A DNA stretch of 64,000 nt. Origin: Zhengitettix transpicula (taxonomy: Eukaryota; Arthropoda; Insecta; Orthoptera; Tetrigidae). Numbering within the stretch: the stretch's first letter is position 1; every line of letters begins with the position of its first letter. The stretch lies in assembly GCA_037074705.1 (NCBI GenBank), contig CM073593.1, forward strand, positions 14,265,001 to 14,329,000, read 5' to 3'. This document shows, in pieces, positions 10,137 through 64,000 of this stretch. The notes beneath the pieces are model-generated. The model was not told where the DNA came from and did not search any database. It was given only the letters and a program-made list of their open reading frames with translations. The position numbers were made by a program, and so were the translations under genes.

Positions 10137-10420
10137 TGAATATGTTTATTTTTTTTTTGGGGGGGGGGGTAACAGGCTACATGAGGGTGATCCACATTGG
10201 GCAACTCCCCTTTAATAGCATAGGAAGGGATTAGAAAGGGGGGATGCGGAAGGGTAGAGGAAGGTAGCCAAGGGTTAATAGGGCCCCCGGGCTATGGTTT
10301 AAGGATAGGTAGCCCCTTCGTATCTCTCCTAAAAGGTTCTGCCTGCGAGAGAACATCCCTCGCAGGTTACCTGCGAGCGAATCCTCTCGCGGGCTTTCTT
10401 TTTTTTCTGAATATGTTTAT
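10137..10420 (-). mobile_element. Hairpin-headed retroposon, internally deleted copy, with 13-bp target-site duplication
   Basis: Perfect direct repeats 'tgaatatgtttat' at 10137-10149 and 10408-10420 flank the insertion. On the minus strand it runs from the hairpin head (10395 to 10310; 'cctgcgagggatgttctctc', 'gcaggcagaacc') directly into the 3' part (10290 to 10170; 'ggctaccttcctctaccctt', 'ctcatgtagcctgttac'). About 300 internal bases are missing compared with 10449-11012. The 3' end carries a C-run then A-run, seen here as T then G at 10149-10170. A variable-length duplication with an A-rich 3' tail points to target-primed reverse transcription. Confidence 0.8.
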
Positions 10421-10436
10421 ATGCAAGAATGAGATT

Positions 10437-11024
10437 TTAATATTTCATGATGTCATTGAGGCCTGCGAGAGGATTCTCTCGCAGGTAACCTGCGAGGGAT
10501 GTTCTCTCGCAGGCAGAACCTTTTAGGAGAGATACGAAGGGGCTACCTTTGGGTATGCCTTTTCCTCTCCGTTTTTGAACTAAGGTTCCCACAAGCCGAG
10601 GCACCTCGGCCTGTTTTAAGAGGTGTATGTTACGGGGTCACAGACCTTGGGCATACGGTAAGAGTTGTTCACTATTCCCATTGGAATAGTCGGCCAGCTG
10701 CCTCCTAAACTGGTCGGGCATGGAGAAAGGAATGCTGCGTCCCCACAGCAAACTCCTCTCCCGCTATCGGAAGGGCGTGGGACAAGTACCCAATGCCCGA
10801 CCTACCCGATGCAGGTTTTTCTAAGGTTTTCCCTGCATTTATTTAGGCGAATGCCGGGTAGGATCCTTAAAATAAAGCCCAGGGGCCCTAGTTAACCCTT
10901 GGCTACCTTCTTCTACCCTTCCGCATCCCTCCTTTCAAATCCCTTCCTATGCTCTTAAAGGGGAGTTGCCCAATGTGGATCACCCTCATGTAACCGGTTG
11001 CCCTAAAAAAAATTAATATTTCAT
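10437..11024 (+). mobile_element. Hairpin-headed retroposon, fullest copy (564 bp), with 12-bp target-site duplication
   Basis: Direct repeats 'ttaatatttcat' lie at 10437-10448 and 11013-11024. The insert (10449-11012) starts with two hairpins: 'cctgcgagag'/'ctctcgcagg' with a GATT loop at 10462-10485, then 'acctgcgag' paired with 'ctcgcagg' at 10488-10514. It continues through a body shared with copies at 54607, 58113, 58500, 60985 and, inverted, 21893, 10160 and 60737. It ends 'ccctaaaaaaaa'. No protein is shared between copies: the open frames at 10499-10708 and 10665-10895 are not conserved. No clear Pol III A/B boxes were found, so the class (SINE or other non-autonomous retroposon) is open. 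Confidence 0.8.
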
Positions 11025-13307: not shown

Positions 13308-13620
13308 TTTTGTGATCTGGGAAAGGCGTTTGATAACGTAAAGTGGAAAATCTTGTTCAATATCCTATTACGGACTGATTTGGCCCACAAGGACAGAAGA
13401 ATTATTTGCAATATCTATAAATATTAAATTGAAATCATTCGAGGAAGGAAGAAGGACGTAGGAGTACGAATAAAGGAAGGGGTGAGACAGGGGTTTCTCA
13501 CTATCCCCGTAGTTATTGATCTGGTCTTTACAAAATGCTATGGAGAGAAAAAAATCAAAGTAGTGATAAAGATCGAAGGAGAAATTGAAAATGTGGATAT
13601 TTCGGAAATATTTTCATAAT
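13308..13620 (+). pseudogene. LINE reverse-transcriptase fragment
   Basis: The reading FCDLGKAFDNVKW (from about 13308) fits the A block of LINE RTs, with D followed by AFD.V.W. It continues LLRTDLAHKDRRIICNIY, then a stop in place of a conserved position. The B block follows as EGVRQGFLTIPVV (about 13476-13514), where functional enzymes usually have GVRQGC.LSP.LF. It ends with VVIKIEGEIENVDI near 13605. Both ends are missing and the catalytic D-D box lies beyond the preserved part. The sequence style (HKDRRII..LY and KKGVRQG-like) differs from the Jockey-like piece at 3297, so it is a different LINE lineage. It is dead: one in-frame stop, a truncated body and substituted core residues. Confidence 0.75.
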
Positions 13621-14089
13621 CATCTCTACAAAATAGTAAATTAAGTAATTTTCAATTCAACAATAATTTTCTATTTAAAAATTTTTGACCTAACTAGATT
13701 TCCGAACTTATAAATTAATTAATTATTTTTCCTATTAAAATGGCAGCTGGTAAAAACATTCATAAATCGTATATCAGTCATATTCAATTCAAAATTATTG
13801 AAGAAGAGTATATTATTATTATTGATATCAAACAGTATTATATTTTTAAGTTTACCAGGCATGATTTGATGAATTATTTTATTTAAGCCTAAACTTCAGT
13901 CAGTTTGCTATATTAAAATGCCGTAAGACTACAAAAATTTATATTCCTGATATTCTGCATATTCTGTATGCCCTAAAAATTCGTGCTATCGATTTACAAA
14001 TTAAGAGTTTTAGTGAGCAGAAAATTTTATAATTTTTTGGGATACCAATTTATGAAGTACCGTATAATTATGCAACATGTTTCAATGGA

Positions 14090-14350
14090 GGATTTATCGA
14101 CCTCGCCATAGTCCCTCTGGGAATAGCAAGCGGTATATAGGCTTCGTAAATGCGGGGCTCCGGAATTTTTAACCATTAAGGACACTATTTGGTTTCGCTC
14201 ACGTCGGTCTTGTAAATACAACACCATTTGCACCGCGAAATGTAGCGGCTGGTGTTTTATGTTCGCGTCGGGGCTTGTTTGCGTTTTGCTGTTACAAGCC
14301 GCTACACTTGGAAGAGCAGGTGAACGCGACCTGTTGTGTTCGAACATGTG
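14090..14350. other. GC-richer island
   Basis: Mixed composition between AT-rich flanks. The 106-codon minus frame (14027-14347) has no recognisable domain. It is a candidate noncoding conserved block or chance. Confidence 0.25.
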
Positions 14351-14359
14351 TTAGCCTAA

Positions 14360-15030
14360 CACGACTTTTTTCCCCCAATTCAGTGATGTCCGTGTCGTTA
14401 ACTAAAAGTGTAATCATCATCGGCTACATTTGCATTACATCCCGCACTTACTAACGGCAAAATTCATGGCAATATGCGCATGATACACAATGAAAAAGAT
14501 GCTACTGTATTACTGAACAAATTTTCTTATAAATATTTTCTAACTTGTATTTTAAATTAAAATTATTATTTTTTCTCATACATGTTCGCAAGAATTAAAA
14601 AAAAAATCATGAATTTCTTAAAATAGAAATTTCTGTTACTCTTCTTGCTGAAATGAGAAAAAATATGTGGGATCCAAATTATAGGAATGGAAATTTAATA
14701 GCGTACGTAAATGTCATAAAAACACACTTTAAAACAAGGAAAATAAAATTAATTATTTCACTGCAGACCAAAGAACATTTAAAAACTATGTCGTATAATT
14801 TTTTGTAGATATTGGTATTCCTGCAACGTATAGACACATAAATTTTATCTTAGCTAGATAACCATTAAAATTCATGTTTCCCATATCATGGGAAAGTCTT
14901 CAGATGTATATAAGTAGAATAAATGTGTTGCAAATACGGATCACTATTTGACCATTTAATTTAATAAAACCATGAATATTAGACGTGAAAGCACCGATGT
15001 TCAGTTTCATCCCTTCGTTATGAAATAATT
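14360..15030. other. AT-rich stretch, nothing recognised
   Basis: AT-rich, with A/T runs at 14560-14640. No gene or repeat family was seen. Confidence 0.5.
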
Positions 15031-15032
15031 CT

Positions 15033-15488
15033 ATGTTCCCTGATCTGAGAGAATTTTTTTGTGACCAATACAAATGTGCAAATTTTGCCTTTTCTGTCAG
15101 CTATGTATCCAACGCGAATAATCTGTCAGTTATTCTAAGTTTAAAACACGACTTTGTGCCGTTCAATCTTCACAGCCTGATTGCTCTGTGTTTAAAGCGC
15201 GCACAAGTTAACAAACGAGCTCGCGGAAAAGCAAATAAGACTGAAAACCATGAGCAATTGCTGGGCAAGTATTTGACGAGCTCCGAGTTGTGCGATTTGT
15301 CACTAGGTTTTATCAGACAGAGTACACAGGAGTCTGACAAACAGAATTGGTCAAGAGATATGTACGCTACGTTTGAATTCTGTATGACTAACAGGAAATG
15401 GGATCAAACATCACTTTCAGACATTAATTTAAGTGAAGATATCGATTTTGGTTTTCAGTGTGGATTTTATGTTATCAACATTTTATGA
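15033..15488 (+). other. Unexplained 151-codon open frame
   Basis: An open frame begins MFPDLREFFCDQYKCANFAF and stays open to position 15488. It is the longest frame in the window outside the transposase at the right edge, in DNA of moderate GC where stops should be frequent. A second frame (15433-15624) overlaps its end. It shows no signal peptide, membrane segment, repeat or family motif that I recognise. The middle is basic (KRAQVNKRARGKANK, about residues 54-68) and the C-terminal half is acidic and polar. It could be an exon of an unknown gene, a decayed mobile-element gene or chance. No splice or poly(A) signal decides the matter. Confidence 0.2.
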
Positions 15489-15714
15489 AACAACCAAAAG
15501 TATTAGTATAACACCTGAACATCGTATTCCTGTAGAAGTACATTTATTGAAAGATTCTCCAATTAATATACTACGATTCAGGAAATTTTTTGTTTTTACT
15601 TTGTTCTCTCTGCAGTTAAAGTAGCAAAGAACTGTTAAATGAGTAGATACTTTCCTTTATGTAATATCTTCCTCGGTTTACTAAAGTGTTTCTTTCTATA
15701 ATAATCAATATAAC

Positions 15715-15830
15715 AGCCGTTTAGTCAGAATAAAATTTTAAACACGACGTTTCGTCCCTGATTGGGATCGCTTCAAGTGTATGGGTGTCACAATATAATA
15801 ACATTTTTAATTTGACAAAAAATGTAGCGT
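15715..15830 (-). repeat. Penelope-like/foldback arm with hammerhead-like motif
   Basis: On the minus strand 15780 to 15742 reads in order: ACAC; TTGAAGC; a stem strand GATCCC; loop AATCA; stem strand GGGAC; GAAAC; GTC; GTGT. The first and last four bases are complementary. The same block lies in both arms of 34686-34966 and 46436-46750. Only one arm is seen here. Confidence 0.6.
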
Positions 15831-16329
15831 GTGGATTGCAAAAAAATGGACTTTAGTTGGTTACAGATAATGATATAGTACGGATTACATGCAACTGTAT
15901 TACCAACAGCATGCACGGGAATAAAAAGCACGGTCTGATTATAATTTAACTTTGTTTTCCAAAGATGAAGATTCAATTAAAATTTTCGAGGATGTTTAAC
16001 ACAGATGCACCTTGAAAGGAATTTCAGTTATAATCAATGACCTATAACGAATTAAAAATTGAGGATAAAATAAATTAGAGGAACGTAGATCATTACGATG
16101 TCGATTTCCACTACACGCTAATGATCATCACTGGCGGACAAATATTATTTTATTGGTATCAACGTGATCAAACTTCTTTCATGAATTATTTTCAGTTTTT
16201 CAATTTGTATACCCAAGAAAATCCTCAATTATTTGCTACTAGTTCTCATCCCGTTGGCAAGAAGCAATCCGTGTTATTGTTTAAATGATTATTCACGTAA
16301 ATTCTGAGCACAGGAATGATCTCAAGCGT

Positions 16330-16720
16330 AGGCCTTACTTGTTCACATGATGCGGGCGGTCTACTCGCAGTACATGGGGGAATTCTTTTTACGTTCGCTG
16401 CTTGGGCGTCGATTAGCCTGCACAGGAGATAAAAGACACGACTGTGCTGCAGAGAGATGTTTTTGGCGCCAAGCGTCTGAAACAAGGCCAGAAATAGGCG
16501 TCTGTGACACCGGAAGACGCGTGTCGCCATCTCTCGTTAGTGGGTGGGAAACGAAGCGATAACGGAGATGCCAATATCGACGAATAACGGTTATTCTGCT
16601 CCACGAGCGCAAAAGGACCTTCCTATATTGTTCTGTTCTATTCTCGTGACGTCGGTCGCAAGGCGCTCAGCTTTCGCTTTTCTACCCTTCTTCCTTCTAC
16701 GGTTTATACCTAGAGAAGAA
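16330..16720. other. GC-richer island
   Basis: A clear compositional island ('gtgtctcgcc'-like, many CpG). Overlapping frames on both strands (16246-16810) are by-products of the composition and resemble no protein. Confidence 0.3.
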
Positions 16721-16841
16721 GAAATTTACTTGGATTGCACGATCCAAGTCGAACCGCCGCTAACTGTAAACATAAATTATTTTCTTAATATCGTTTGCAG
16801 AAATATGTGATATTATTTATTAAAATTATTAAATGAAATGT

Positions 16842-16842
<1 letters not shown>

Positions 16843-16909
<67 letters not shown>
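16843..16909. repeat. Compound microsatellite (CA)n(TA)n
   Basis: An uninterrupted CA run to about 16878 is followed by a TA run to 16909. It abuts 'cagggtgaccgattt', a word resembling the end of several arthropod mobile elements. Confidence 0.95.
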
Positions 16910-16911
<2 letters not shown>

Positions 16912-18330
16912 GGTGACCGATTTATCCGAAGACATTGACATATTTACAAAACTACCCATCTTATCAAAAAAGTTTGTAATGAATTTTGATCTTATCAAAG
17001 CGGAACGTCCAATGGCACCAACCTAGAATGTCTATAAGGACCTCTTTGGGATGGGGATATAAAATACTTTAAACTTTAAGACACAATTTTTAAGTTGACG
17101 TAACCGACTTAAACAAAAAAAACCTTCTTTTACGCAATTTTACAAAATTCCCTATTTTTTAATACACATATGGTTCTTTTAAAATGTAAGCCGATTTGAC
17201 CTTGAAGCTCTTCTTTGTGCCGTCGACTCAAATACGTCCAACGTTACCCACTCGGCTGCAATGATGGTTTCTTGTCATTCATGATTTGATGATGTGGCAA
17301 CGTTTGTCTCATTCTTTGTTGTCTTCCGCTGACAGCCAGAACAGCTTCCATATGAGAAATACGAACAGTGTCCAGCCAGCATATATTATAGTAGTACATT
17401 TACCTCATTTTGCCTATTTTTCGATTGAATATTTTCGCTAGCAAATCATTCGCAACAGTAGGAGTCGTACGCACCAAATCTCTATAGCTCCCTAATTCAC
17501 AACCGTGCCCTATGGAATCAATCCGTACTTGGTTGTTACGCTGATGACGTTTCTCTTCCAAATCTTGTTCGTCATCATTGTGTTTCAGCCCAAAATTATT
17601 TGACGATTTACTTCGATCTGCAACCTATCATTTCGGTCAATCCGCAGTCCAGGGAAGGTGCAATTCTGCATTCACTCAAACTCTTCATTATCAATTATCT
17701 TTAAATCGCCATTCAGGAAGCGGACGAAATTTTCTCTTTCAACTTTGATCTGTTTTATGAGATACCGCATGAGAGAGAAAAGTTGTGATATCAGCGTATA
17801 GGGTGTTGTGAGTAATATTTTCGCCAATTTTTTCTCCATTTTTTCATGGGAACCGGTAAACTCTAGCTTCGTGGTCTGCGCATTGAAATCTCATCAACGT
17901 GGATCAGACGATATGAAACTCTGAGAACTTGCAGGGTTAAATACAATTAGTGGCTTTTTTGTAGTCGGTAAAACACGCTAAACTGCTTTTGGATTTTTTA
18001 AATTAACTAACGAGGTTTTTTGTATGTGCTTGCTTATGCGTGAACCACTGCTGAAGGCACCTTGGACCACGGGTAATTCCTTCTCTATGATTGGATTGGG
18101 GCGTCCTACGAACTTGTGTAGAACGTTGCTCGCGTTAAATCTGGAGGCCATTTTAGCACTCTTCTGAATCCTCCATTTTTGATATTGAAATAAAAACTGA
18201 AGGTTTCTTTCGTTCCGTTTTGCCAATTCTCCTGTCATACTTGCTGTCTGTATGTCATTTCGGCTGGTATTCTATCGATATCTGGAGATGCCATGCATCT
18301 TATACATAGAAAGTGAGAAGTTCTAATGAC
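16910..18330 (-). other. 1.4-kb segment between two identical-type microsatellites, possible old mobile element
   Basis: The segment begins at the left with 'cagggtgaccgatttatcc'. Read on the minus strand this is a 3' end followed by a TA/CA tail, the usual arrangement of a LINE-like end with a simple-repeat tail. On the minus strand an 86-codon frame (18238-17978) reads MTGELAKRNERNLQFLFQYQ and is open, but I do not recognise it. No RT or transposase motif was found downstream in the other frames. The element class is unresolved. Confidence 0.3.
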
Positions 18331-34685: not shown

Positions 34686-34966
34686 AGTCAGAAAAATGTT
34701 ACTATCAAATTTAAAACATAATATATATATTTTTTAAACAATGTTTCATCCCTGATTGGGACCTTTTCAGGAGTAGTTACAATTAAATTCAGTTATCTAA
34801 AGAATTTAAAAAAATTGAATTAAATATTATCATGTATGAAAGACTTTGTTTTCTTCAAATTTTTTAGATATTTTAATTTAATTGTACACCTGAAGAACGT
34901 CCCAATCAGACATGAAACGTGCTTTTTAAAAATATTATGTTTTTAATTTGATAAAAAAATCTCTCT
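34686..34966. mobile_element. Foldback element with Penelope-style hammerhead-like motif in both arms
   Basis: The left arm (34686-34800) and right arm (34855-34966) are inverse copies: 'tatcaaatttaaaacataat' pairs with 'attatgtttttaatttgata'. Next come 'ccctgattgggacc' against 'cgtcccaatcag' and 'aattaaattcag' against 'tttaatttaatt'. Each arm holds the motif: the right arm on the plus strand (34886-34924) has ACAC, CTGAAGA and a GTCCC stem, loop AATCA, then a decayed return stem and GAAACGT. The left arm on the minus strand (34775-34740) has CTGAAAA, GGTCCC, AATCA, GGGAT and GAAAC. It is noncoding; the arms diverge by perhaps 15%, so it is an old copy. Confidence 0.7.
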
Positions 34967-37959: not shown

Positions 37960-38020
37960 GAAAAATATAACACTACGTTTCGTCCGTAATTTGGCACTTA
38001 ATCGGGTGAACAATAAAAAA
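37960..38020 (-). repeat. Hammerhead-like motif, second family
   Basis: Minus strand 38008 to 37971 reads: CAC; CCGATTA; AGTGCC; loop AAATTAC; GGAC; GAAAC; GTA; GTG. Closing CAC/GTG and GTCC/GGAC-type stems are present. The core differs from the canonical CTGANGA at two positions. Confidence 0.45.
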
Positions 38021-42045: not shown

Positions 42046-42975
42046 CCGAATGTTTAACGAGTATTTGTCTGAATTATGCTCAAAAAATATGTATCTCTTA
42101 GTATTTTCGTGAAAAATTACTTTGATATAAAATGTAAGCTTTCAGTCGAAGATTTACGACTCATCGCCACTAACAGAACATTTTAGCTATACTTTCAAAA
42201 AAAAATTCTGTAAAACAGTACGCTTAAAATTATGAATGAATATGAAATATAAACAATTCAGACAAAAAAGTGATAATATAAATACCACACAAAGTTTCTG
42301 GGATCCTTGTCCCTGTCCTCAGGTGCGAAGAAGTGCCTAGAGAGACACAACTACACTTTTGAGTTTTGTCATCTGAAAAGTGCAGTTTTGTCGCTCTAGG
42401 CTCTTCTTTGCTCCTATCACTTTTTTTGTCTGAATTGGCTATCTTTCTTATTCAGTATTTTCAATCAGACGTAATTTTAAAATTATGAATGTTCATGATA
42501 AAAATTAACAAAATACCTCGAATGATTATTCTGCTCGAAATAAGAAACTTTAATGTCAATTGCCGTGATAAAAATGCGACGTTTAAATGTGAATATCTTC
42601 AGAAGAGTCTTTAGGAATCAAAACAAAATATTATCAGAGAAATATTCCGATTCGATTACGAATTTCAGTCAATAAACTATCTTTTCTACTTTCATTTTAG
42701 AATATCTTTTATTGATAAAGAAGGCCAAAAAAGTTGAAACTGACCGATTTATATCACGATAATTGAAAGTATTCTAAACATAGTTTTACAGTTTTTTTTA
42801 AAAAAAGAATAGCCTATATGTTCTGTTCTTTGCTATGAGTCATAAATCTTTGCCTGAAGGGTTACATTTTATGCAAATGTAATTTCTCACAAAAATACTT
42901 ATATTTATATATATGCGGAATAATAAGTTTTATTTTGAGAGCACAATTCAGACCAAAATACCCGTACAGTATTAG
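42043..42975. mobile_element. Long foldback element (arms about 170 bp) carrying a nested MITE
   Basis: The left arm (42043-42210) and right arm (42783-42970) are inverse: 'aaattactttgatataaaat', 'cgaagatttacgactcat' and 'aacagaacattttagc' on the left against 'atgttctgttctttgc', 'atgagtcataaatctttg' and 'cattttatgcaaatgtaatt' on the right. The pairing extends to 'gcacaattcagaccaaaata' (42941-42960). A separate insert with its own duplication lies between them (42224-42491). It is noncoding. Confidence 0.7.
42224..42491. mobile_element. MITE family A copy nested in a foldback, with 15-bp flanking direct repeats
   Basis: 'ttaaaattatgaatg' occurs at 42224-42238 and 42477-42491. Inside, the inverted ends 'aattcagacaaaaaagtgat' (42256-42275) and 'atcactttttttgtctgaatt' (42417-42436) enclose a palindromic core built on 'ttttgtca' and 'tgcagttttgtcg'. 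The same ends occur at 48476-48600 and 62038-62232. Confidence 0.7.
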
Positions 42976-46435: not shown

Positions 46436-46750
46436 GAAAAATTTTATATCAAATTTATAACATAATATTTAACAGACAGAACGTTTTATCTCTGATTGGT
46501 ACCTCTTTAGGTGTACAATAATAATTAAATATAGTTAGCTAAAAGAAGATGATCAAGGTTTCTTATAATAAATTGTATGTAACTGTATAAATTGGATTTA
46601 TACATTAAAAATTACGATTTATGTGACACTTCGTTAAATGCTTTTTAGACAATTGAATTGAATTATTATTGTTCACCTGAAGAGGTCACAATCAGGTCTA
46701 AAACGTCATGTTTGTTAAATATTATGTTTTAAATATTACTAAAAATGTCA
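46436..46750. mobile_element. Foldback element with Penelope-style hammerhead-like motif in both arms
   Basis: It belongs to the same family as 34686-34966: 'ataacataatatttaacaga' (left) against 'gttaaatattatgtttt' (right), and 'gtgtacaataataatt' against 'aattattattgttcac'. The right arm (46673-46712, plus) has CAC, CTGAAGA, GGTCAC, AATCA, GGTCT, AAAAC and GTC. The left arm (46514-46474, minus) has ACAC, CTAAAGA, GGTACC, AATCA, GAGAT, AAAAC and GTT. The damage in each arm differs, so all four arms of the two elements together recover the intact form. Confidence 0.7.
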
Positions 46751-48424: not shown

Positions 48425-48630
48425 AAAATGAAAAAATTTACGGCATGTTTTTAAATAATGAATAAGAAAGGTAGGCAATTCAGACAAAAAGGGTCGTTGT
48501 GTTTCTCTAGGCATTTCTTAGCACCTGACGAAAGGGACGAGGATCCAAGGAACGTTGTGTGGTATTTGTATTACTTGTATTTTTGTCTGAATTGTCTCTT
48601 TCTTTTTCGTGGTGAAGCAACTTTGAATGC
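48425..48630 (+). mobile_element. MITE family A copy
   Basis: The left end 'aaatgaaaaaatttacggca' and 'ggcaattcagacaaaaaggg' are the inverse of the family's right end. The right part 'acgaggatccaaggaacgtt', 'gtgtggtatttg' and 'tttttgtctgaatt' (to about 48596) is intact. Part of the left arm is deleted. The frame at 48458-48658 is chance. Confidence 0.65.
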
Positions 48631-50635: not shown

Positions 50636-50900
50636 ATAAGTCAGGAAATAGTTTACTGAAAAAAAATTAAATATACCGACGTTTCTTCCTTATTTTAGGA
50701 CCTATTGAGGTTTACTAATTACATATATAAATAATAGAAAATAAATTTAGTTCAGTTGCAACAGACAAAGCAACAAAACATTCTCTCTATATTTTTATCT
50801 ATTATTTATATATAACATTAATAAACCTGAAGATTTAATAAAATATGGACGAAACGTCTGAATGTTTGATTTTTTTCTTAATGAGCTCTTTTCTGACTCA
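50636..50900. mobile_element. Foldback element, second motif family
   Basis: The left arm 'aaattaaatataccgacg' with 'tttcttcc' (50665-50690) and the right arm 'ggacgaaacgtctgaatg' (50848-50865) are inverse. Pairing continues through 'attacatatataaataatag' against 'ctattatttatatata'. The right arm has AAAC, CTGAAGA, a weak stem, GGAC, GAAAC and GTC. The left arm (minus) has CTCAATA, GGTCCT, AAAATA, AGGAA, GAAAC and GTC. Confidence 0.65.
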
Positions 50901-58020: not shown

Positions 58021-58115
58021 TGTGAAATACAATTTTGAATTTAGACCCATGGACAGCATCCGATGACGGTTGTAGCCGAAAGGAGTTTTTCTGTCCATAG
58101 AACGCTGTCTAAGTG

Positions 58116-58492
58116 CTGCGAGGGCTATTCTCTCGCAGGCAGAACCTTGTAGGAGAGACAGAAGGGGGCTACCTTTGGCTGCCTGTTAAACTGGTCGAGG
58201 CACGGAGAAGGGACTGCTGCGTCCCCACAGTAAACTCCTCTCCCGCTATCGGAAGAGCGTGGGACAAGTACCCAATGCGCGACCTATCTGATGCAGGTTT
58301 TACTAGGGTTTGTCCTGCATTACTTTTAGGCGAATGCCGGGTAGGACCCTTAAAATATAACCCGGGGGCCGTAGTTAACTCTTGGCTACCTTCCTCTACC
58401 CTTCCCCATCCCCCTTTTCAAATCCTTTTCCTATGCTATAAGAGGGAAATTTCCACTATGTGGATTACCCTATACATAGCCTGTCTACACCC
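58116..58492 (+). mobile_element. Hairpin-headed retroposon copy with internal deletion
   Basis: The head 'ctgcgagggctattctctcg', 'caggcagaacc' and 'ggctacctttgg' runs directly into 'taaactggtcgaggcacgg', so about 180 bases of the middle are missing. The rest is standard to the 3' 'tagcctgtctacacccccc' tail (C-run 58489-58500). The long frame at 58113-58535 is not conserved among copies. Confidence 0.75.
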
Positions 58493-58504
58493 CCCCCCCC
58501 CAAA

Positions 58505-58975
58505 ATGCCTTTTACTCTCTCCGTTTTTGAACTAAGGTTCCCATATGCCGAGGTACCTCGGCCGGTTTTGAGAGGTGTAAGTTCCGGGGTCACAGACCTT
58601 GGGCATACGGTAAGAGTTGTCCGCAATTCCTATTGAAATAGTCGGTCAGCTGCCTCCTAAACTGGTCAAGGCACGGCGCGGGAAAGCCGCGACCCCACAG
58701 CTAACTCCTCTCCCGCCATCGGAAGGGCGTGGGACAAGTACCAAATGCCCGACCTACCTGATGCAGGTTATTCTAGGGTTTTCTCTGCATCACTTTTAGG
58801 CGAATTGTCGGGTAGGATCCTTAAACCATAGCCCGGGGGCCCTAGTTAACCCTTGGCTACCTTCCTCTACCCTTTCGCATCCCCCCTTCAAATCCCTTCC
58901 TATGATATTAAAGGGGAGTTGCCACCATGTGGATTACCCTCATGTAGCCCGTTACTCTAAACAAAAAAAATTCAA
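58505..58975 (+). mobile_element. Hairpin-headed retroposon copy, 5'-truncated, directly behind the previous one
   Basis: It starts inside the body ('atgccttttactctctccgt', 'ttttgaactaaggttccc') right after the C-rich tail of the copy at 58116. It runs complete to 'gtagcccgttactctaaac' and an A-rich tail. No head hairpins, so it is 5'-truncated or fused to the first copy. Confidence 0.75.
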
Positions 58976-60729: not shown

Positions 60730-61250
60730 GTTTTTTTTTACGGTAACAGGCTACATGAGGGTAATCCACATGGTAGCAACTCCCTTTTAATAGCATAGGA
60801 AGGGATTTGAAAGGGGGGATGCGGAAGGGTAGAGGAAGGTAGCCAAGGGTTAACTAGTTCCCCCAGGCTATGTTTTAAGAATCCTACCCGTCAATTCGCC
60901 TAAAAGTGATGCAGGGAAAACCGTAGAAAAACCTTCATCAGGTAGGTCGGGCATTAGGTACTTGTCCCACGTCCTTGCGATGCACAACTAACTCCTCTCC
61001 CGCTAACGGAAGGGCGCGGGACAAATACCCAATGCCCGACCAGATGCAGGTTTTTCTAGGGTTTGTCCTGCATTACTTTTAGGCGAATGTCGGGTAGGAT
61101 CCTTAAACTATAGCCTGGGGCTCTAGTTAACCCTTGACTATCTTCCTCTACCCTTCCGCATCCCCCCTTTCCAATCCCTTCCTATGCTTTTAAAAAGTGG
61201 AGTTGCCGCCATGTGGATTACCCTCATGTAGCCTGTTACCTAAAAATACT
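60730..61250. mobile_element. Inverted pair of hairpin-headed retroposon 3' halves (arms about 230 bp)
   Basis: A minus-strand 3' half (60737-60966) faces a plus-strand 3' half (61013-61243) across about 46 bp. Both carry 'gtaacaggctacatgagggt' or its inverse, 'aagggatttgaaag' or 'tttccaatccctt', and 'ggttaacta' or 'tagttaacc'. The halves differ at scattered sites, so they are not a perfect recent copy of each other. Neither contains the hairpin head. Confidence 0.8.
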
Positions 61251-61995: not shown

Positions 61996-62019
61996 GTAAT
62001 CGTCAATTTTCTGAAGTAA

Positions 62020-62290
62020 TTAATAAAAAAGATAGCCAATTCGGACAAAATAAGTGATAATGTAAATACCACACAACGTTTCTGAGATCCTTATCCCTTT
62101 CCTCGGGTGCGAAGCAAAGCCTAGAGCGACACAACTGCACTCGTCAGTTGACAAAAGCAGTTTTGAGGAAAGGAACAAGGAACCAATAAACGTTGTGTGG
62201 TATTTATATTCTCTCGTATTTTGTCTGAATTGGCTATCTTTCTTATTAATTATTTTTAATCAGGCGTAAATTTTTTCATTTTAAATTTTT
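62020..62290. mobile_element. MITE family A, best foldback copy (arms about 85 bp)
   Basis: The left arm 'attaataaaaaagatagcc', 'aattcggacaaaataagtga', 'taccacacaacgtttctg' is the inverse of the right arm 'aacgttgtgtggtatttat', 'ttttgtctgaattggctatc', 'tttcttattaat'. The inner text 'ccctttcctc' and 'gaggaaagg' also pairs, with a short loop on 'cagttgacaaaag'. It is noncoding. Confidence 0.75.
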
Positions 62291-63224: not shown

Positions 63225-64000
63225 GTACCACTGTGAACAAAAAGTAAGGTGAATTTATTTATAAAATATAAATTCTTTATTTATTCTTCCAAATCAATTT
63301 CATCCCCTTCAAAGTAATCCCCGTCCGATAAAACGCACTTTTTCCAACGATTTTTCCAGTCCTCGAAACAGTCGGAATAGTCTTTTTCCGGTATAGCCTT
63401 CAAGTCCTTCTTCGATTCGGTTTTTATCTCCTCAATCGTGTCAAAACGGCGTCCCCGCATTGGCCTTTTGAGTTTGCTGAATAGCCAGAAGTCGCACGGA
63501 GCCAAATCAGGCGAATACGGTGGTTGCGGAACTAAATGAGTCGAGTTTTTGGCAAAAAAGTCGCGAAGAACCAATGCAGTATGGAATGGTACATTATCGT
63601 GATGAAGGAACGGAGAGTTATTCGCCCATAATTCCGGCCGTTTGAGACGAATAGCTTCACGCAAACGACGCATAACGCTCAAATAATATTCTTTGTTGAC
63701 AGTTTGGCCCGGCGGAAGGAATTCATAGTGCACCACACCACGATAATCAAAGAAAACTGTCAACATGACCTTGATTTTCGACCGACTTTGCCGTGGTCTT
63801 TTCGGTCTTGCATCACCTTTTGCACGATATTCACTGGATTGGTCGGTGGTTTCAGGGTCGTATGCGTAAATCCAAGTCTCGTCTCCAGTAATGATGCATT
63901 TCAAGTGGTCCTGATAGTCAGATAGCAAAGTTTCACACACATCAAAATCCAAAAAATTGAGCGATTTTGGCACCAATCGAGAATTGACGTGCTTGAGACA
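63225..64000 (-). mobile_element. mariner-family transposon, 3' part, running off the right edge
   Basis: The transposase (63281-64000, minus) is followed within about 50 bases by 'ttcaccttactttttgttca' on the minus strand (63252 to 63233). This is a plausible terminal repeat next to a TA at about 63225. The short gap between stop codon and end is normal for mariner. The 5' half lies outside the window. Confidence 0.7.
63281..64000 (-). CDS. mariner transposase, C-terminal 239 residues (partial at the window edge)
   Basis: It cuts and pastes its own element into TA targets and would act in the nucleus. The frame is open to the last base of the window: upstream of 63976 it reads CLKHVNSR, so the protein continues beyond the edge. 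Visible catalytic residues, numbered from the first visible codon: Asp40 in TGDETWIY (codon 63881-63883), Asp135 in HHDNVPFHTA (63596-63598) and Asp170 in YSPDLAPCDFWLF (63491-63493). The last two are separated by 34 residues, the D34D signature of the mariner family. The C-terminus, DGDYFEGDEIDLEE before TAA at 63281, has the usual form. The N-terminal DNA-binding motifs and the WVPHEL-type linker are outside. There is no stop or frameshift in 239 codons, so the copy is young compared with the remnants at 44590 and 60024. Confidence 0.95.
   Translation of the reverse strand, partial: CLKHVNSRLVPKSLNFLDFDVCETLLSDYQDHLKCIITGDETWIYAYDPETTDQSSEYRAKGDARPKRPRQSRSKIKVMLTVFFDYRGVVHYEFLPPGQTVNKEYYLSVMRRLREAIRLKRPELWANNSPFLHHDNVPFHTALVLRDFFAKNSTHLVPQPPYSPDLAPCDFWLFSKLKRPMRGRRFDTIEEIKTESKKDLKAIPEKDYSDCFEDWKNRWKKCVLSDGDYFEGDEIDLEE

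Follow-up and report, generated by a model that had tools for sequence, protein, structure and literature searches.

A 64,000-nucleotide stretch of contig CM073593.1 of Zhengitettix transpicula, called the window here, carries one decayed pLTR arm, which belongs to a Penelope-like element (PLE) and contains the known minimal type I hammerhead. The copy is best explained as one tail-less arm whose partner was lost. With a probability of roughly 93%, the PLE insertions of this genome carry a hammerhead-bearing pLTR 3' of an RT-endonuclease frame, are usually cut at the 5' side, are often joined head to head with a tail on one arm, and are enclosed by a target-site duplication, and the window copy is a tail-less arm of such an insertion. 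The features of the window are listed in Table 1. L-numbers are the labels of sampled loci from the same genome.

Table 1. Hammerhead-bearing features found in the 64,000-nucleotide window
Feature	Position	Strand	Evidence
Decayed minimal hammerhead of type I, with ACAC/GTGT as stem I, TTGAAGC as core, one extra base, both strands of stem II around the loop AATCA, then GAAAC and GTC	15742..15780	-	read + covariance model
pLTR arm of Penelope-like element, tail-less outer end at ~15700	15700..15801	-	alignment to family arm
Inner part of this repeat, reading TTTGACAAAAAATGTAGCGTGTGGATTGC on the plus strand	15802..15840	-	by eye, against L040
Head-to-head pLTR pair, family of the window copy; relics 34736-34774 (-) and 34886-34925 (+)	34690..34966		palindrome search + covariance model
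Head-to-head pLTR pair; relics 46476-46514 (-) and 46673-46711 (+)	46453..46734		palindrome search + covariance model
Head-to-head pLTR pair; relic 50823-50859 (+, E 0.01)	50639..50898		covariance model
Head-to-head family B pair, GTT triplet; relics 62071-62110 (-) and 62157-62198 (+)	62014..62255		palindrome search + covariance model
Family B hammerhead relic	48521..48560	+	covariance model E 2.7e-8; 48488-48586 matches last codons of L267
Family B hammerhead relic	42287..42326	-	covariance model E 4.5e-7; 42386-42261 matches last codons of L267
Single hammerhead relic	37970..38009	-	covariance model E 2e-4

As read directly on the minus strand from 15780 to 15742, the motif consists of ACAC, TTGAAGC, GATCCC, AATCA, GGGAC, GAAAC, GTC, and GTGT, which agrees base for base with the order given in the original prediction. 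The pairing of the two ends at 4 of 4 positions as stem I and the self-complementary ACGT formed by GAAAC and GTC were also read as predicted. The hammerhead consensus contains CTGANGA and GAAA, and the core takes the form CTGAAGA in the family of the window copy. The window copy departs from CTGANGA at the two core bases already named in that prediction (C3 to T and A9 to C), and, again as stated there, A9 is separated from stem II by one base in excess of the standard form. The type I set of CTGANGA, GAAA, and a GTH triplet was found in the family, but not in the window copy itself. The combination of T3 and C9 occurred in no other of the 65 scored rows of the first sample (L009 is the same place as the window copy), and no subfamily sharing the deviant core was seen among these rows; we take the two changes as a likely private decay, not as a subfamily mark. 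Because C3 and A9 are changed, the window copy would be without ribozyme activity, and it is probably a mutated and dead hammerhead relic.

When the window motif was folded alone as RNA, both stems and two further pairs were obtained at -9.6 kcal/mol. However, 30 of 200 shuffles of the motif folded equally well, and the isolated fold therefore proves nothing. Rfam reported no hammerhead for the window copy, either at gathering scores or permissively, when the whole window and positions 13500-17500 were searched. Since the isolated fold is weak evidence and there is no Rfam listing, the case for the window hammerhead rests on its relatives. In a search of the 64-kb window with a covariance model trained on 24 copies, the window copy being excluded, the window motif was the best match (46.7 bits, E 1.5e-11, with E roughly calibrated), and 13 more matches were obtained at E <= 0.03. 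The hammerhead-like fold of the original prediction is thus supported by the model match and by the relatives, although the window copy itself is a decayed ribozyme.

The motif had also been placed in a repeat arm, and this was borne out on two counts. The arm sequence aligned to the family arm with a score of 138, compared to 43 for the best of 100 shuffles of the neighbouring 720 bases, and a 17-mer from one motif end, ACACGACGTTTCGTCCC, had 20,885 matches with at most three mismatches (10,518 + 10,367) in the 993.6-Mb genome, compared to 1,094 (553 + 541) for its reversed control. By eye, the homology of the window arm stops at TTATT, which is the end point of the tail-less arms elsewhere. 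No inverted partner arm of the window copy was found in 15781-16500, where the score was 31 and shuffles gave up to 43.

A sample of the family, here family A, that favours no base of the motif was drawn with a flank 15-mer outside the motif, for which there were 118 places; 90 of these loci were taken (L039-L068 and L196-L255), and 60 of them are only 715 bases long. They were aligned with the motif masked, and the 98 of 130 arms spanning the motif were kept while the 32 non-spanning arms were dropped. The canonical base was the commonest at every hammerhead core column of these 98 arms (C3.58, U4.71, G5.58, A6.68, G8.56, A9.63, G12.49, A13.84, and A14.77), so that the consensus of this sample contains CTGANGA and GAAA, in favour of the original prediction. 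Base-shuffled loci gave no match to the masked arm alignment. The whole core was kept in 7 of the 98 spanning arms and, by a slightly different criterion, in 9 of the 69 arms in which all 11 core columns were readable; in the first sample, for which the 17-mer and resemblance to the window had in part guided the choice of rows, it was kept in 23 of 65. Since so few arms keep the whole core (7/98), the family copies are judged to be old. No selection on the core was seen in individual copies: core conservation (65.1%) was no higher than loop conservation (66.0%), with stem II at 58.2%, so nothing shows present-day selection on the ribozyme.

A structural scan for intact hammerheads gave 16 motifs (14 distinct) in 345,966 bases, which comprised the window and own-genome loci mostly chosen for carrying the repeat, and the same scan gave none in the reversed sequence and none in three shuffles. 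One extra base before stem II was present in 14 of the 16 intact motifs. The extra base of the window copy is therefore a family feature in its presence, but the base found there varies from motif to motif. When viral contigs were screened for the core pattern alone, at least 120 stretches came up; they were taken for chance, and none of them was used.

Covariation was scored over 24 aligned copies, which were drawn from families that differ in stem II and were partly picked for good cores. Standard pairs filled 81.0% of the pair cells compared to 72.5% after shuffling, and 0 of 500 shuffles reached as high. Changes on both sides were found in 7 of the 9 stem pairs, in 13 cells (shuffled mean 4.0; 9 of 500 shuffles reached 7), that is, in 3 of 4 pairs of stem I and 4 of 5 pairs of stem II, so compensatory changes occur in both stems of this partly selected set. 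The double changes in stem I, which the original prediction had named as a check, are thin, with one sequence behind each. When the register was slid by -1, there were 8 double-change pairs in 17 cells at 36.1% pairing, a count no lower than that of the true register; nevertheless, both the pairing and the covariation score of the true register exceeded those of all six slid versions.

The Rfam model RF00163 (Hammerhead_1) matched 2 of the 18 loci tried, namely L026 (29.0 bits, E 0.005) and L031 (25.3 bits, E 0.081). The best relative, L026, thus stayed below the gathering score of 34 bits, as is expected because stem III has no loop. The core and stems of L026 align to the model without a mispair; the differences from RF00163 are the absent stem III loop, the scores below gathering, and the lack of a match in the window copy and in 16 of the 18 loci tried. 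A chance resemblance at one place, for which the unexceptional isolated fold and the silence of Rfam on the window copy could be quoted, is hardly conceivable, since very many relatives have the canonical core and covariation; it is refuted by the masked alignment and the intact-motif scan.

The connection of the hammerhead to a reading frame was seen most fully in family B, a second hammerhead family in which GTT replaces GTC in most copies read. In L050, an endonuclease frame lies roughly 1 kb ahead of a pair of family A arms, and a sense family B hammerhead follows 65 bases past the frame end. The L050 frame matched GIY-YIG at E 0.0041, below the cut-off and with an antitoxin family slightly ahead in Pfam; a protein search with the L050 endonuclease gave no match, and a search of solved structures gave nothing relevant. 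In the own genome, a protein search with the L050 frame had 14,905 first-look candidates; 150 of them were scored, and all 150 matched. A family B sense hammerhead was present in the 3' 800 bases at 10 of the 10 best places after the query (L257-L266; E 4.5e-12 to 1.2e-3).

Because L050 alone was below the GIY-YIG cut-off, L267, picked as the longest open frame in the list of L050 relatives, was taken up for the domain test. As in Penelope-like elements, RT and GIY-YIG domains were found in one frame of 457 codons in this family B locus, the last codons of which are overlapped by a sense hammerhead. The RVT_1 match was exactly at its cut-off (E 7.1e-7, 29.6 bits), and the GIY-YIG match was at 24.8 bits (E 2.7e-5; cut-off 22.6). 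NCBIfam gave only bacterial RT models for L267, far below cut-off. Among 96 relatives of the L267 frame, PF00078 was found in 84, PF26215 in 87, and GIY-YIG in 13. Several of these relatives carry the names of ants, Vollenhovia among them. L032 has the same order. Counting the family B loci whose 3' side is present (L050, L257-L266, L267, and L032), a sense family B hammerhead comes after the endonuclease region in 13 of 13. In L044 the frame match runs to the locus end, and L003 contains an RT piece only, with no sense hammerhead 3' of it. In L256, a recurrent repeat of another kind, which carries long open frames (such as AIGRAWDKY...DAGFS; L256:4058-4243, also at L072:713-1336, L073:7482-8009, and 58113-58535 of the window), sits between two pieces of Penelope-like frame; Pfam gave no meaningful match for the L256 pieces.

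For family A, to which the window copy belongs, a match to the frame or to a frame relative was found in 8 of the 90 flank-anchored loci, but beside or between family A arms in only 3. In L209, an endonuclease C-terminus is followed by a family A sense hammerhead on the same strand. In L202, frame pieces stand beside an inverted family A arm with a hammerhead. In L239, an endonuclease piece lies between two family A arms, in neither of which the model finds a hammerhead. The frame pieces of all three contain stops, so family A is attached to the RT-endonuclease frame by stop-containing fragments only; frames further out would be missed in the 715-base loci. The link to minimal Penelope-type hammerheads, raised as a suggestion in the original prediction, is therefore supported by endonuclease linkage in the family B loci and in L209, L202, and L239, and for family A the support is thinner than for family B.

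The layout of the family A arms was head to head in 43 of the 90 loci, single in 42, and unrecognisable in 5, with direct-only arrangement in none; 47 loci thus had no visible pair. The arm alignments of a pair overlap each other in 5 of the 43, by more than 70 bases in L222 and L235. The tail GAAGTCAGATAGTTATAATTG was carried by one arm in 22 of 30 pairs, by both arms in none, and by neither in 8, where the 30 pairs with both outer ends readable are the 41 simple pairs minus 11 with an unreadable outer end. Over all 41 simple pairs, the tally was 25 for one arm, none for both, and 16 for neither. The tail score threshold was 24, shuffled tails had a 95th percentile of 20 and a maximum of 26, and a few tail scores were equal to this top shuffled score of 26. 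L031, which does not belong to the 30-pair set, shows the tail at either end.

Averaged over the elements scored, target-site duplications are present. In 29 elements, the mean flank match was 16.8, compared to 11.8 (sd 0.56) for mismatched flanks, the top of 200 control means being 13.3; 10 of the 29 scores were 12 or lower, which is about the control mean. The clear duplications are of variable length, approximately 9-14 bases by eye. These insertions fit the pLTR arrangement of Penelope-like elements, in which the pLTRs are direct or inverted head to head, with an optional tail and a short target duplication.

The palindromes had prompted the reading of the repeat as a DNA transposon (MITE or foldback) whose terminal inverted repeats carry the motif by accident, and gene-less palindromic elements of approximately 180-350 bases do occur in great number. 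However, neither the symmetric inverted ends nor the duplication of fixed length of such a transposon was found: the tail is one-sided, the duplications vary in length, and RT and GIY-YIG sequence was found in linkage with the arms. This reading was dropped as exceedingly improbable. A retrozyme, that is, a small circular-RNA retroelement with direct tandem type I hammerheads, was considered in view of two arrays. One is a direct array of four hammerhead units about 305 bases apart at L073:4191-5401, and the other comprises at least six short hammerhead units at L072:3716-4426, about 93-217 bases apart on one strand. The units of the L073 array have related but different stems I and II, in a retrozyme-like layout. 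For family A, however, 0 of 90 loci were direct-only, so that the direct tandem repeats of approximately 150-450 bases with a canonical type I hammerhead known from metazoan retrozymes were not found in this sample; moreover, stem III is loop-less and the related arms are pLTRs of PLEs. The retrozyme reading was dropped for family A as very improbable.

Several further palindromes and relics were observed. In the window pair at 50639..50898, a weaker relic at 50678-50709 on the minus strand was seen only by pattern, and within the family B pair, 62158-62048 matches the end of the L267 frame, in the final codons that overlap the L267 hammerhead. Imperfect palindromes of 512 and 242 bases (83%) with no hammerhead match lie at 60735-61246 and 10307-10548. 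A transposase frame at 63281-64000 on the minus strand, truncated at the edge of the window (Transposase_1 E 3e-18, DDE_3 E 6e-9), is one that we take to be mariner-like. Outside the window, L016:2113-2394 and L016:70-279 represent more palindromic families, with the same hammerhead core and another stem II (AGATACG...CGTATC) or with a decayed motif. Short palindromes of 88-90% identity at L023:668-836 and L053:2562-2714 have their centre inside a hammerhead-like motif.

According to the PLE reading, the pLTR with the hammerhead stands 3' of the RT-endonuclease reading frame, and insertions are usually shortened from the 5' side, leaving little or no frame. Often a second, inverted pLTR is attached head to head; one of the two arms then bears a short tail, and a target-site duplication surrounds the whole. 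Insertion would proceed, as suggested by the layout together with the literature, by target-primed reverse transcription in which the PLE protein cuts and extends both strands. Putative cleavage, if any, would occur after GTC; as stem III consists of two pairs without a loop, it would mainly involve two hammerheads carried by the same RNA. In RNA of a head-to-head element the motif would be buried in a long hairpin, as in the predicted fold of L042, the one element folded (-102.8 kcal/mol, z -18.9).

The frame-less pairs would have arisen by extreme truncation at the 5' side, with an inverted pLTR attached, or by the copying of pairs so formed. Arm identity was 72.5% within elements (38 pairs) and 72.1% between elements, and these near-equal values decide for neither fresh truncation nor copied pairs. 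A separate non-autonomous family, spread from palindromic masters with PLE enzymes as its machinery instead of arising as new 5'-truncated insertions, is a possible but rather unlikely origin of the frame-less pairs. Such masters would account for the 43 frame-less pairs in 90 loci, which far outnumber the 3 loci with frame pieces beside family A arms, and for arms that are no more alike within an element than between elements, although the latter is also expected for old copies from few masters. Moreover, clear arm-specific marks are lacking, as arms with and without a tail share the commonest base at every hammerhead position, and head-to-head junctions, with or without a tail, have been published for PLEs. 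With PLE insertion retained as the preferred reading, we speculated that the frame-less pairs may record two coupled starts of reverse transcription at the tail edges, on both target strands, by a dimeric PLE protein; the transcript of each strand would then contain one ribozyme, sequestered in the hairpin unless it came from a direct array. This proposal is doubtful at present. If it is true, the genome would be a natural data set for the unsettled insertion mechanism of PLEs.

A hammerhead in a Penelope-like element is a known kind, and this genome adds a new and numerous example, whereas the window copy is a fossil of little weight by itself. The genome offers many copies in two families, which differ in stem II and cleavage triplet and share the core, with readable tails and duplications. 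Such a genome permits tests of how inverted-pLTR pairs form and of whether the ribozyme is kept up by selection in active lineages. Among the titles and abstract beginnings found in the open literature, none dealt with palindromic hammerhead elements, and we do not claim that they are absent from print.

Minimal type I hammerheads of Penelope-like elements have reportedly been described by Cervera and de la Pena in 2014 and by Lunse, Weinberg and Breaker in 2017. As far as review descriptions of the published motifs go, the family studied here resembles them in the type I order, in a stem III of two self-complementary pairs without a loop, in the place within pLTRs, and in the thousands of scattered copies; the extra base before stem II is the feature set beside them here. 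A review describes it as unknown which role hammerheads play in Penelope-like elements (PMC7761336).

The closest layout is that of the Adineta vaga Penelope, for which excerpts of the published account describe head-to-head inverted pLTRs, junction palindromes, an optional 31-base tail on one inverted pLTR, and target duplications of 8-10 bases (PMC3846280). The pLTR layout, the tail, and the duplications are the same as here; however, most of the insertions described in those excerpts have a reading frame, whereas frame-less pairs dominate our sample, and the word 'hammerhead' is absent from the main text of that paper (PMC3846280). For Poseidon PAc of Anolis, both target strands are reported to be cut and extended by the Penelope protein, the tail is explained as the segment lying between two start points of reverse transcription, and the hammerhead cleaves only with protein and is dispensable for insertion in vitro (PMC11167929). 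Poseidon PAc and the elements studied here share a frame with RT and GIY-YIG, a hammerhead in the element, a tail attributed to two RT start sites, and AT-rich targets; nevertheless, the hammerhead of Poseidon PAc overlaps the frame start, whereas here it stands 3' of the endonuclease region in the loci read on the 3' side (PMC11167929).
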